This document shows positions 399 to 4,631 of a stretch of DNA of 38,055 bases, piece after piece. A program made the translations under genes and the position numbers. The notes under the pieces were generated by a model, which ran no database searches, was not told where the DNA came from, and saw only the letters and a list, made by a program, of their open reading frames with translations. The first letter of the stretch is position 1. Each line of letters opens with the position of its first letter. Source of the stretch: Deltaproteobacteria bacterium (lineage in GTDB: Bacteria > Desulfobacterota > Dissulfuribacteria > Dissulfuribacterales > UBA3076); contig JAGYNZ010000026.1 of assembly GCA_018399745.1 (NCBI GenBank), forward strand, positions 1 through 38,055. The letters are read 5' to 3'.

Positions 399-548
399 TC
401 ACGGAGATGATTGACAAGGCTCATCTACTGAACATCCACCCTCAAAAAAATCCGACAGGTGTCCCTTGAGGGAAATCGTCCCTAAAACTGACGAAGGTGC
501 CATCTCAGAATCTACGGAGGATGTTGCCTGAAAACAGGTCTTCTGAAT
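399..548 (-). pseudogene. 3' part of IS-interrupted thioredoxin-like gene
   Basis: This is the C-terminal portion of the thioredoxin-like gene whose 5' part lies at 2077-2449. On the minus strand the frame runs from the IS junction (YIQKTCFQ...) to a TGA at 399-401 and ends in a Cys-containing tail, GGCSVDEPCQSSP. It joins in frame to the other part when the IS4-family element and one 8-bp target duplication are removed. That in-frame join is direct evidence that both pieces were one gene before the insertion. No start or ribosome binding site is present here, so this piece is not expected to be expressed by itself. Confidence 0.6.
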
Positions 549-556
549 GTAACTTA
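549..556. repeat. Left target-site duplication of IS4-family element
   Basis: GTAACTTA here is repeated exactly at 2077-2084 on the other side of the element. The 8-bp length fits some IS4-family subgroups. Collapsing the two copies to one restores the reading frame of the interrupted thioredoxin-like gene, which supports the assignment. Confidence 0.7.
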
Positions 557-1939
557 CTAAAGTTTCGCAGTTGTTATTGTTAACTGCTCCATGATAATAT
601 TTTCTAATATATCAATAAGTTTCAAAAAGTTATCAGGGTCAATTTTAGGACAAACTAGTGGACTTGACACAAACATAAGTGCCTTCACTTTGTCCCAGAC
701 TTTAGCCATATAAAACATTTGGAGATGGGTAGCTACCATTTCCCGGAACAAAGGTCCCAGGGAAACCCTGTGGCCATGTCTTGCTAAAATATAGACCAGC
801 AGCAAATATCTGATCATAACCAGACTATAACAAGCGATAACTGCATCAAATGTCTCGCTCTGCTCCTTACCCAAATATAACATCTGTTTTGCATCTTTGA
901 AAAAGACCTCAATGCTCCAGCGTCTGGCATAATATTTAAGAATTTCAGAGGGCTCCAATTCTGAGTCCGTACATAGAAAAGGATGCCATTGCTTTTTCCC
1001 ATCACTGACAAACAAGACTTGTACTTGCCCAGTCTGCGGTAATGAGACCTTGAGGCTCACTCCTTTTACGTTCATGCCCGGCAACCAGACTGTTTTCCTT
1101 TTGGCTGCTTGTGTCCATAACTGCTTGAGAGTATATCCATGGCCCTGATAAATATATCTGGTTTTCCCTCTTTTCAGTCGGCAGATAACTCCATAGCCTA
1201 TTGATACCGTCTCAGATATCAAGGCATCATGGGAAAACCAACTGTCAAACAGGACAAAAGATGCCTCTATCCCATAATTCCATGATCGTTCCAACATATC
1301 TAACAATACATCGGTCTTCTTCTCAAAAACTTCTTTGCGCCTCCTCCATCCGTTTGTCCTTTTATCTATCTGTCTTGAATCCTGATTAGTACGATTCCTG
1401 GAAGTATGAACAGCCATATCAACAGGATAAAAATTGACACCGTCATGATAGCCAAGCTGCAAACACTGATAGCCTAAAATCGATCTTCTCTTTGCATGAT
1501 CAAAATGATAACTGACCAACTCCATCTGTTTGCCGGTTTTTGGCAATATAGTGTCATCTGCAATCAGGACTTTGTCTCTGAGAGGTGTGTCCTGTAACCT
1601 CATGATAATGCGAGATAACAGTAAATATATAAGCTTGCGCCAATTGAAACGTTCCTGATTCAGAAAACGATAATAAGTATCCTTCTGAGCATCACACATC
1701 CTGCGGAAAGAATCGGCTGTCCAGAGAGAAGCCATGCACTTTTTGACAAATGGTAACAAGATCATCATATATAAGGTGATAATAGTGGGATATCCCCTCT
1801 GTTTATAAATGCCGCACTGATGAAGCATGGTCCTGAAACCAAAACTATCCATTGACCTGTCAATTTCCGACTCCAGACAGATATTTCTTTGTGCAATTTC
1901 CTTTTGCAGAGAAAGCGATAATGGTTTAAAGTGATTCAT
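557..1939 (-). CDS. IS4-family transposase (DDE)
   Basis: The protein should catalyse cut-and-paste movement of the surrounding element. All three DDE acidic residues are visible: Asp in LIADDTILPK (about residue 128), Asp in LFDSWFSH (about 232) and Glu in RRWSIEVFFKDAK (about 344). The last lies in an exact Y-(2)-R-(3)-E-(6)-K signature (YARRWSIEVFFKDAK), the hallmark of the IS4 family. I chose the ATG at 1939 (MNHFKPLS..., 460 aa) because AAAGGAG sits 5 bases upstream of it; an upstream in-frame ATG at 2011 has no such site and would add 24 residues. A weak promoter (TTGACT, complement of 1978-1983) lies just upstream. The frame is complete, so the transposase is probably functional. Confidence 0.9.
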   Translation of the reverse strand: MNHFKPLSLSLQKEIAQRNICLESEIDRSMDSFGFRTMLHQCGIYKQRGYPTIITLYMMILLPFVKKCMASLWTADSFRRMCDAQKDTYYRFLNQERFNWRKLIYLLLSRIIMRLQDTPLRDKVLIADDTILPKTGKQMELVSYHFDHAKRRSILGYQCLQLGYHDGVNFYPVDMAVHTSRNRTNQDSRQIDKRTNGWRRRKEVFEKKTDVLLDMLERSWNYGIEASFVLFDSWFSHDALISETVSIGYGVICRLKRGKTRYIYQGHGYTLKQLWTQAAKRKTVWLPGMNVKGVSLKVSLPQTGQVQVLFVSDGKKQWHPFLCTDSELEPSEILKYYARRWSIEVFFKDAKQMLYLGKEQSETFDAVIACYSLVMIRYLLLVYILARHGHRVSLGPLFREMVATHLQMFYMAKVWDKVKALMFVSSPLVCPKIDPDNFLKLIDILENIIMEQLTITTAKL

Positions 1940-2076
1940 AGCAGCTCCTTTGTTTAGTATTTTTAGTACTTTAGCTAAGTCAAGTATACTAAATTGGAGC
2001 TGCTTTTTCAATTATTTTTGCTATTTTTTCAGTATGTTGAGTGTCTTGTCGATCATTTTTTTACTGCGAAACTTCA
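557..2076 (-). mobile_element. IS4-family insertion sequence, about 1.52 kb
   Basis: The element carries one transposase gene and ends in short imperfect inverted repeats: 558-571 (TAAAGTTTCGCAGT) and the complement of 2063-2076 (TGAAGTTTCGCAGT), 13 of 14 identical. It is flanked by exact 8-bp direct repeats, GTAACTTA at 549-556 and 2077-2084. The transposase stop codon falls on the left end itself, so no bases are spare. The transposase frame, both ends and the duplication are all intact, which suggests a recent and possibly active copy. It interrupts a thioredoxin-like gene transcribed in the same direction. Confidence 0.85.
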
Positions 2077-2084
2077 GTAACTTA
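2077..2084. repeat. Right target-site duplication of IS4-family element
   Basis: GTAACTTA, identical to 549-556. On the minus strand it reads TAAGTTAC and forms the codons for the ...I-S-Y... junction of the interrupted thioredoxin-like gene. Confidence 0.7.
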
Positions 2085-2449
2085 TGATATTCTTTTCGCC
2101 CCTTATAAAAGTCAGTCCGTCAGCATTCCTGGCTATCAGTCCAGGAATGGTATCAATTCCCGAAAGTTTCAGGGCCATTGTATTTATCCTGGGTGAATAC
2201 GCTTCATTGTGGTCCAGTCCCGGGAGAACCTCGCGATTTATCTCTTTTACCGGATTGAAGTGGAACTCTCACTTCGTGCATCCTCTCAGGGCCTCTATGA
2301 CCTTGTGGCAGTGAGGGCAGTCCTCTGAAAAGACAAGATACATCGGCTTGACAGGGTCCGAACAGGTCCTAACCGCGTATGTTCCATCGTCCAGTGTGCA
2401 TCCGTGCAGGCAGGTCTGCGCACTGTCAAATATCAGCAGAGAAAATGCC
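2077..2449 (-). pseudogene. 5' part of interrupted thioredoxin-like gene with in-frame TGA
   Basis: On the minus strand a long frame encodes a thioredoxin-fold-like protein: a DDGTYAVRTC segment, then PMYLVFSEDCPHCHKVIEAL with a CPHC redox motif, then a segment ending DTIPGLIARNADG, where IP matches the cis-Pro site of thioredoxin folds. It would act in thiol-disulfide exchange, probably outside the cytoplasm, but I cannot name the family. Three defects are seen. No ATG, GTG or TTG lies in frame upstream of the conserved part. An in-frame TGA (2269-2271) interrupts GCTK-stop-EFHF. The IS4-family element splits the 3' end, which resumes at 548 and runs to 399. Otherwise the frame is open throughout, so damage looks recent. 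The TGA could be a selenocysteine codon or a nonsense mutation. Confidence 0.6.
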
Positions 2450-2479
2450 TTTATAGGCCTTAAGGGGATGGGCTGTCAA
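2450..2479 (-). promoter_or_regulatory. Candidate sigma-70 promoter, TTGACA-18-TATAAA
   Basis: On the minus strand TTGACA (complement of 2474-2479) is followed after 18 bases by TATAAA (complement of 2450-2455). It points into the interrupted thioredoxin-like gene. It lies within a diverged repeat also present upstream of the glycine-zipper gene at 5664-5692. Confidence 0.5.
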
Positions 2480-2525
2480 ATTTTAAGAGTGATGTCTAAT
2501 CGAGAAGAAAAATAAGACTATCCTT
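2462..2525 (-). repeat. Diverged intergenic repeat, copy A
   Basis: This stretch matches 5676-5736 in the same orientation with scattered changes. Shared blocks include GGGGATGG-CTGTCAAATT, GTGATGTC and ATCCTT. The TTGACA box lies inside the repeat in both copies. Each copy sits directly upstream, on the minus strand, of a gene that has lost its normal N-terminus. It may be the end of a mobile element or a conserved promoter module. Confidence 0.5.
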
Positions 2526-2577
2526 GTGGTTTTTAAAAAGAAATTTTTTAGCTTGACAGGGGAACATAGGATATCTT

Positions 2578-3270
2578 TCAATTCTCTCTTATTCTTGAAG
2601 GAAGCAAAATTCTTGCATCGCCGACAATACAATGTTCCTGTGAGCAGAAGACCGGGTTGAGATCAATCGATTCGATTTCATCTGCTAATTCTGAAACCAG
2701 ATCAGAAAAGGATAAGAGCAATCGAAATAACTCCTGCATGTTTACAGGCGGCTTGCCGCGATATCCTTCCAACAGTTTGCTTGCCTTTAGTTTTTTCACC
2801 ATTAATTCTGCATCTCTTCGGGACAAGGGGGACATGCGTATAGTAACGTCATGATAGATTTCAACACCGGTGCCGCCAAGTCCAAGCAAAATAACCGGGC
2901 CGAACTGATAATCAATCTTGGCACCTACAATCAGCTCCAAACCTTCAATAATTTCTTCAATGACAATTCCGGCAAACCCTTTCATTTTACTCAGTCGTAC
3001 AAACTGTTCAGCCAATGCCGATTCATTATCAATACCGACTATTACGCCCCTTACGTCAGATTTATGCACCACTTGAGGCGATACAATCTTGGCCACTATC
3101 GGATAGCCTATTTTTGCTGCGAATTCGCAGGCCTCCTTTATATCTTTTGCCCAATGCGACCTAGGCACATTGATTCCGGCTAGTTTCAGGATAGCCTTGG
3201 CATCCGGTTCCATTACCCAGCCATATTTCACCGCGGCATCAGATATAATATGTCTGATTTCATTCAACAT
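2578..3270 (-). CDS. ADP-forming acyl-CoA synthetase, beta (ATP-grasp) subunit
   Basis: This is the small subunit of an ADP-forming acyl-CoA (acetyl-CoA type) synthetase, which with the alpha subunit interconverts acyl-CoA + ADP + Pi and acid + CoA + ATP in the cytoplasm. The 230 residues form an ATP-grasp_5 domain. An N-terminal ILKLAGINVPRS segment is followed by the nucleotide-binding strand YPIVAKIVSPQVVHKSDVRG, then VIEEIIEGLELIVGAKID and the metal-binding end IESIDLNPVF. The length matches the separate beta subunits of archaeal ACD enzymes. Its ATG overlaps the end of the alpha gene by 7 bases, so the two are translationally coupled. In anaerobes such enzymes usually conserve energy from acyl-CoA, or in reverse activate acids; the direction cannot be read from sequence. 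Confidence 0.88.
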   Translation of the reverse strand: MLNEIRHIISDAAVKYGWVMEPDAKAILKLAGINVPRSHWAKDIKEACEFAAKIGYPIVAKIVSPQVVHKSDVRGVIVGIDNESALAEQFVRLSKMKGFAGIVIEEIIEGLELIVGAKIDYQFGPVILLGLGGTGVEIYHDVTIRMSPLSRRDAELMVKKLKASKLLEGYRGKPPVNMQELFRLLLSFSDLVSELADEIESIDLNPVFCSQEHCIVGDARILLPSRIREN

Positions 3271-4631
3271 GGTTTTCTCCTCTTAAGTGCCTCAGCCATC
3301 AGCACAGCCCCTTCAATGGAGGGTGAAACAGGCACGCGATTGAGTTCAAAACCTTCAATAAGCATACGATATTTATCAACATGAGGTACGTATGCGATAA
3401 GGGGTTTACCTTGCTGTCTTGAAATCTGGCTTAGGCGAGCCCCGAGGTCCGAGGTGATGCCGGGCAGGTAAGGCAATAGCAACATTATGATGCAGTCAAT
3501 CTCCTGGATCTGGCCGAGAAGACGAGCCACAGCGACAAAGTCGTCATCCACCGCGCTTCCGGTGAGATCAATCGGATTGCCGATCGCAGCTATAGACTGC
3601 ACGCTGGCCGACAGGCTCTCCCTGATTTCTTTTTGGGTCTGTTCAGTAAGGGGCGGGACAATAAGGCCGTAATCCATGCAAAAATCTACTGCCAGAGCAC
3701 CATGCCCACCGCTTCCACTAACAATGCCTATCTGGCCTTCAATGCGTTCCTGATAACAACTCAGAGATTCGCAAAAGGAAACCAGCTCAGATTCATTTCT
3801 GGCCTCTACTACGCCGAATTGGGAAAACATTGCTGAAGTGGTCTTGTAATCGCCGGCCAAAGAGGCGGTATGGCTGGAAACCGCCTTCATTCCGCTGGGA
3901 GTCCTTCCCGCTTTCAACACAACAACCGGCTTGGGGCAATTAAAGGCAGCCTTAACGAATTCCCTGCCCTCGTTTTTCCTAAATCCCTCTACATAAAAGG
4001 CGATCACTTCGTTGTCCGCTTTGTCGGCAAGATAATTAAGCAGATCCAATTCATTGACCATTGCCTTGTTTCCGATACTGACAGCCAGTGACAGGCCGAT
4101 CCCCTCTGTGGCAAACTTGATCATCTGATCAACCAGGATTCCACCGCTTTGGCTGACCAGAGCGACATTTCCCGAGCCTGGTTGGACCATGCGTTCAATA
4201 GGAATAAAAAATGTGTCTACAAGGCCGGGAGAATAGACGCCCAGACAGTTAGGTCCGATAAAAGGAAAACCCGCATCTCTGGCTGAAGTTGTGATCCGGT
4301 CCTGTAAATCACTCCGGCCGCTCTCCGCGAATCCTCCGGAAATCACCGCTGCACCGCCGACCCCGGCCTGGATACAATCATCGATGACTTTGGGAACATA
4401 TTCAGCGCGGACAGCGATCACTGCCAGATCAATTTTCCGATGAATTTCGAAGACACTGGTGAAAACGGTTTGTCCCTGAAAAGAGCCTCCTCTAGGATTA
4501 ACCGGAAAAACCTGGACTCGGTAACGAAGGAAGTTCTTGTTAAAAATAACATTAGCCGGATGGCGGTCATTATTCAAGGACACACCGATGACTGCCATGG
4601 TTTTGGGTTCAAAAAGCGACTGTAGATTCAT
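3264..4631 (-). CDS. ADP-forming acyl-CoA synthetase, alpha subunit
   Basis: This is the large subunit partner of the beta gene downstream. Residues about 1-130 form a CoA-binding Rossmann domain (MAVIGVSLNN, then VFPVNPRG and FIGPNCLGVY). The middle is the flavodoxin-like succinyl-CoA-ligase domain (NVALVSQSGG, then SSHTASLAG, whose His is the expected phosphorylated residue). The C-terminal third is the second ligase domain (GQIGIVSGSGGHG, IGNPIDLTG). The 455-residue length fits separate archaeal-type ACD alpha subunits. The start is supported by AAGGGGG 7 bases before the ATG. The substrate acid (acetate, branched or aryl acids) cannot be decided. Confidence 0.9.
   Translation of the reverse strand: MNLQSLFEPKTMAVIGVSLNNDRHPANVIFNKNFLRYRVQVFPVNPRGGSFQGQTVFTSVFEIHRKIDLAVIAVRAEYVPKVIDDCIQAGVGGAAVISGGFAESGRSDLQDRITTSARDAGFPFIGPNCLGVYSPGLVDTFFIPIERMVQPGSGNVALVSQSGGILVDQMIKFATEGIGLSLAVSIGNKAMVNELDLLNYLADKADNEVIAFYVEGFRKNEGREFVKAAFNCPKPVVVLKAGRTPSGMKAVSSHTASLAGDYKTTSAMFSQFGVVEARNESELVSFCESLSCYQERIEGQIGIVSGSGGHGALAVDFCMDYGLIVPPLTEQTQKEIRESLSASVQSIAAIGNPIDLTGSAVDDDFVAVARLLGQIQEIDCIIMLLLPYLPGITSDLGARLSQISRQQGKPLIAYVPHVDKYRMLIEGFELNRVPVSPSIEGAVLMAEALKRRKPC

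Follow-up and report, generated by a model that had tools for sequence, protein, structure and literature searches.

An in-frame TGA at a conserved cysteine of a VKOR-thioredoxin gene copy: most likely gene decay in an apparently selenocysteine-using deltaproteobacterium

A thioredoxin-like reading frame on the minus strand of a deltaproteobacterial contig (JAGYNZ010000026.1 of assembly GCA_018399745.1, whose positions 1 to 38,055 are the whole stretch analysed and are called the window here) carries a TGA where a Cys would be expected. This raises the question of whether the codon specifies selenocysteine or records recent decay of the gene, the two options offered by an original prediction made on this DNA. 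We find that the window copy is very probably an ectopic, 5'-truncated, IS-disrupted VKOR-thioredoxin pseudogene with a nonsense codon at a conserved Cys, and that its in-frame stop is most likely the product of ordinary gene decay and not a selenocysteine codon.

The reading frame, its family and the residue at the TGA

Translation of the frame places the TGA at 2271-2269 on the minus strand. The frame is open from 2475 to the TGA and then onward past 2078, the upstream stop being a TGA at 2478-2476, and from 2445 to 2078 it translates as FSLLIFDSAQ...CPHC...GCTK-TGA-EFHFNPV...IPGLIA...NIISY; the CPHC, EFHFNPV and IP that had been read on either side of the TGA are all there. The extent first given to the feature, 2084-2449, had the right frame but was too short, as the feature runs from about 2445 to 2078 and resumes at 549-399 past a mobile element; the lower limit of 2084 is the first base of that element's target-site duplication. 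When the two parts are rejoined, this frame holds one stop in 172 codons, compared with 15 in 171 and 8 in 171 for the other frames of the same strand. The main part, at 2078..2445 (minus strand), is a remnant of a VKOR-thioredoxin fusion gene that begins with the final residues of the last long VKOR helix, continues with the thioredoxin-like domain and ends where the IS was inserted, and it shares 63-69% protein identity with intact homologues of the genus across 118-123 residues. The window copy retains 23 of the 25 residues that are invariant in 30 homologues, having lost only the Cys at the TGA and the V after the cis-Pro-like P, and its tail keeps the family-invariant C273 and C295. Judged by these sequence comparisons, the minus-strand frame is real coding homology. 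Two points count against a pseudogene: with a single stop and nearly all invariant residues in place, the protein sequence itself looks little decayed, and the stop falls exactly at a redox-type Cys in an organism that appears to use selenocysteine.

VKOR-thioredoxin fusions are a type of membrane enzyme that makes or passes on disulfide bonds. The intact homologues of the window copy are about 300 residues long and share the layout of the Synechococcus VKOR (PDB 4nv6, 4nv5, 3kp9), in which a thioredoxin-like half that bears a CxxC comes after a VKOR-like half. The window copy differs from that protein in being without a VKOR half, and the group to which it belongs differs in its extra GCxxC and in a tail that contains Cys. 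Across the class-level group, this extra GCxxC (C201 and C204 of the homologue L010) is invariant beside the usual CxxC and the Cys-containing tail, and the invariant columns of a 30-row alignment (A1) include C42, C110, C113, C188, C191, C201, C204, C273 and C295. The paralogue in the same genome matches Pfam VKOR with an E value of 4e-4 and 20.9 bits, below the cut-off of 27.5, and the sole solved relative returned by profile search was the Synechococcus VKOR-thioredoxin protein (4nv6, E 0.01). A fold search with a structure model of the relative L097 also placed the Synechococcus VKOR first (4nv5, E 1e-4), although the TM-score over the query was only 0.38; the model has a pLDDT of 79.8 and a pTM of 0.54, which leaves the placing of its two halves unsure.

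Matches were found in 8 of the 11 genomes searched within the family, that is, in 7 of 10 others and in the window's own genome, where one match lies in the window and the other is an intact copy on contig C5. At the level of the class, 36 of 46 genomes searched had a match, the own genome included. The class-level search gave 36 homologous places besides the window, all without internal stops; 30 of them were read at residue level, three (G026, G013 and G012) were added through the phylum-level set and three (G022, G028 and G031) are known only as being without internal stops. Scanning a contig collection with a single sequence returned no relative, and scanning it with alignment A1 returned 36. 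The named relatives are MAGs, mostly labelled Deltaproteobacteria, Desulfobulbaceae or Thermodesulfobacteriota; 33 of the 36 named loci make up a second alignment (A2), from which L125, L126 and L128 were omitted. The plasmid collection contained no relative of the fragment.

Alignment with the homologues puts the TGA (2269..2271, minus strand) at C204 of L010, which is the second of the two Cys in the GCxxC motif, bearing out the proposal that it occupies a Cys-like position of a thioredoxin-fold protein. The site is Cys in all 30 class-level loci and in 21 of the 29 phylum-level loci besides the window; this second Cys is absent from the other 8, which have another residue or a gap there and are all at most 41% identical to the query. 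All 36 named loci have Cys as well, of which 27 carry a search pattern indifferent to this residue; the remaining 9 came up solely through a pattern that demands it and so are not independent evidence. The class, phylum and named sets overlap, and no other locus read in any of them has a TGA or another stop at the site. What the window copy shows is one nonsense codon at a Cys that is invariant in its nearer homologues, and the homologue alignment, which had been suggested as a way to learn whether the position is Cys or Sec, thus answers Cys. If the site is taken as Cys, the rejoined frame offers 26 single-base routes to TGA and 66 to any stop, and in each case 10 of these start at Cys codons, so that a nonsense mutation striking a Cys is no rare coincidence. 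Under gene decay, a Cys codon here would have become TGA through a single-base substitution.

Loss of the VKOR half and interruption of the tail

Homology in the window starts at residue 146 of the own-genome paralogue, where the fifth long helix (129-148) of the structure model of L097 ends. A tblastn search of the window with the full-length paralogue gave no convincing match to the VKOR half, and the Pfam VKOR model, by which the genome-wide hunt for this half was made, matches only the C5 gene in the whole genome at an E value of 0.001. The stretch where the VKOR half would be expected, 2446..2577 (minus strand), has no recognised gene, and tblastn and Pfam VKOR detected no VKOR remnant in it; as a query, positions 2430-2640 matched four other short stretches of the genome at 78-85%. 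The window copy lacks the VKOR half. It had been stated that the frame has no in-frame start, which holds for everything upstream of the thioredoxin domain, where no ATG, GTG or TTG occurs in frame, but there is a single in-frame ATG at 2343, 24 codons ahead of the TGA and at the first strand of that domain. No Shine-Dalgarno-like stretch was seen by eye ahead of this ATG.

The 3' part of the gene is divided by an insertion element of 1521 bp (557..2077, minus strand) with 15-bp terminal inverted repeats that differ by one mismatch. Its transposase ORF (557..2011, minus strand) scores 367 bits against the IS4-family model NF049925, for which the cut-off is 250, and contains the Pfam domains DDE_5 and DDE_Tnp_1. 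A perfect 7-bp target-site duplication, TAAGTTA, flanks the element at 2078..2084 and 550..556 (minus strand), which points to a recent insertion. Partial copies of the element elsewhere in the genome stop within a base of these limits, at 2076-2078 in L049, L052 and L057 and at 557 in L055; another partial copy, L050, still matches up to 2085. A transposase above the NCBIfam cut-off, terminal repeats and a target duplication are all present, and the element has no notable difference from other IS4-family insertion sequences. Past it the frame resumes with the C-terminal tail of the gene, YIQKTCF ... GGCSVDEPCQSSP (399..549, minus strand), which ends at its own stop, a TGA at 401-399. The IS4-family element thus divides the tail of the gene, and the TGA is not the only defect of the reading frame, of which the 5' half is gone, the start is missing and the tail contains an IS.

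Contig C66 of the same genome ends in a second copy of the 3' tail (L062:4900-5070), beyond which it is not assembled. This copy is 96% identical to the window over 340-514 and 99% over 400-514, and about 565 extra bases on C66 separate the parts that match window positions 339 and 340. The tail on C66 is suggestive of another copy of the gene.

The TGA might also be an assembly or sequencing error, with the thioredoxin part still open. The assembly is in 88 contigs, and C66 breaks inside the second copy of the tail; this copy provides no test of the base in question, because it stops short of the TGA codon. Nothing observed points directly to such an error, and the gene would be truncated and split regardless; we regard the error as highly improbable.

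Selenocysteine machinery and the search for a SECIS

The search of the genome for selA/B/C/D that had been recommended found all of them. selA (607 bits), selB (355 bits), selD (384 bits, with one in-frame TGA) and the tRNA-Sec (74.5 bits) each score over their family cut-offs. A gene for the formate dehydrogenase alpha subunit, fdhA (L145, G000:C45:29978-31816), also has an in-frame TGA, followed by a textbook SECIS-like hairpin with a GGUCU loop at 18 nt and -20.3 kcal/mol, and selB is located on the same contig at 53677-55623. Judging by selA, selB, tRNA-Sec, selD and fdhA, the genome appears to use selenocysteine. With the full Sec machinery present and the position a conserved Cys, neither of the findings that had been named as refuting selenocysteine, a genome without selB or selC and homologues with neither Cys nor Sec at the site, was obtained; the evidence against selenocysteine comes instead from the broken state of the gene.

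PMC13188914 (Fig. 2 legend) describes the bacterial SECIS as a stem-loop 16-37 nt after the TGA, with a G in the first two loop positions and a free energy of -7.5 kcal/mol or lower. The same paper notes that certain SECIS elements of bacteria depart from this model, and failing the score is therefore no proof. We applied these constraints, together with a contiguous upper stem of 4 bp, in a purpose-written script and not in bSECISearch. The control TGAs in selD (L059) and fdhA (L145), chosen for long open frames on both sides or after them, both pass the script, at -9.5 kcal/mol (loop GGA, 20 nt) and -20.3 kcal/mol, respectively. After the window TGA no SECIS was found, the best stem-loop reaching -2.3 kcal/mol against the limit of -7.5. 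As a further control, the window and 10 loci supplied 241 Cys codons from frames that stay open for at least 250 codons, although not every one of these frames need be a gene; 108 of the codons score -2.3 or lower and 40 pass -7.5. The scan is therefore permissive, and the window TGA fails all the same. None of the 8 genus homologues with Cys passes the SECIS limit. Folding gave the 72 bases from the TGA onward no advantage over shuffled sequences (z 0.75; 162 of 200 shuffles at least as good). A GGT does lie 17 bases past the TGA, as had been pointed out, but the scan and the folding give it no place in a hairpin loop; the earlier failure to fold a convincing SECIS was repeated with both methods.

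One explanation that would preserve a role for selenocysteine is that the ancestor of the window copy was a true CxxU selenoprotein form of the VKOR-thioredoxin fusion, with loss of the 5' half and insertion of the IS coming later. The window motif would read CxxU, a motif listed for Sec in PMC13188914; the site is a Cys invariant in the nearer homologues, and the genome has both the Sec machinery and two genes of known Sec families with an in-frame TGA. We nevertheless judge this ancestry very unlikely, as scanning and folding yielded no SECIS, no locus read in the class, phylum and named sets has a TGA at the site, and the 36 class-level places besides the window are without internal stops. 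There is accordingly just a slight chance that the source lineage had a CxxU form with a non-standard or eroded SECIS and that the window holds its fossil. By their titles, none of the literature matches listed concerned a bacterial VKOR selenoprotein. The window copy resembles bacterial thioredoxin-like selenoproteins of the CxxU types in having TGA in place of a redox-type Cys, within an organism that uses Sec, but differs from them in that no SECIS was found, a start is missing, the gene is split and no TGA-bearing relative occurs among the loci read.

A short stand-alone selenoprotein of 89 residues could also be imagined, one that is made at present, begins at the ATG at 2343 and reads the TGA as Sec, since the thioredoxin domain has its first strand at this ATG and the frame continues through the TGA to ISY-TGA inside the IS. 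Its end stop (2076-2074), however, was created by the IS, the homologues read are fusions of about 300 residues, and neither a Shine-Dalgarno-like sequence (by eye) nor a SECIS was found; the probability of such a product is close to nil.

The selenocysteine reading was consequently rejected after the machinery, the alignment, the controlled SECIS scan and the folding had all been considered: the TGA lies in a split gene that has no usable start, no SECIS that we could find and no TGA homologue among the loci read. The option of recent decay gains support from the missing 5' half, the IS insertion and the intact copy elsewhere in the genome.

History and meaning of the copy

The intact Cys copy on contig C5 lies between thiC and panC, a placement common to the own genome and the three same-genus genomes looked at (G005, G009 and G004). 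An intact homologue with Cys is thus kept in the same place as in these relatives. The window copy adjoins an acyl-CoA ligase pair. This two-subunit ligase (2578-4631, minus strand; ATP-grasp_5 and CoA-binding/Succ_CoA_lig) has, for its ATP-grasp subunit, relatives of only 34-39% identity in the genomes of the family, a second gene of the own genome among them, and the stretch 2578-4631 may for this reason have been acquired.

In the gene tree, the window copy falls outside the clade of 8 genus genes with moderate support (80/86). Its pN/pS against these 8 genes is 0.369-0.435, values that are rough because dS exceeds 1 in all window pairs, and the pN/pS among the genus genes themselves is 0.195-0.525, with 27 of 28 pairs below the window values. 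The ratios of the window copy suggest long constraint. That they lie above 27 of 28 genus pairs is, on this rough measure, what relaxed selection would give, and we read the values as constraint for most of the history of the copy, followed by some relaxation and recent decay. The G+C content was considered as a sign of foreign origin and rejected: the fragment, at 48.6%, resembles the rest of the genome (44.7-50.3% in other loci), and it is the paralogue, at 38.3%, that is the outlier. From its position and phylogeny we infer that the copy was acquired from another lineage or stems from an old duplication. In the course of events that we propose, a copy arriving from outside the genus, or an old duplicate, would have been long under selection before it decayed.

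By sequence homology, the window copy is a further case of the known VKOR-thioredoxin family, as a pseudogene. A pseudogene with a TGA at a conserved Cys mimics a new selenoprotein in searches for Cys/Sec pairs, and the window copy clearly illustrates such mimicry in an organism that genuinely uses Sec. Finding selA/B/C/D did not help to discriminate here; the tests that separated the two readings were whether the gene is complete, the IS that flanks it and SECIS controls drawn from its own genome.
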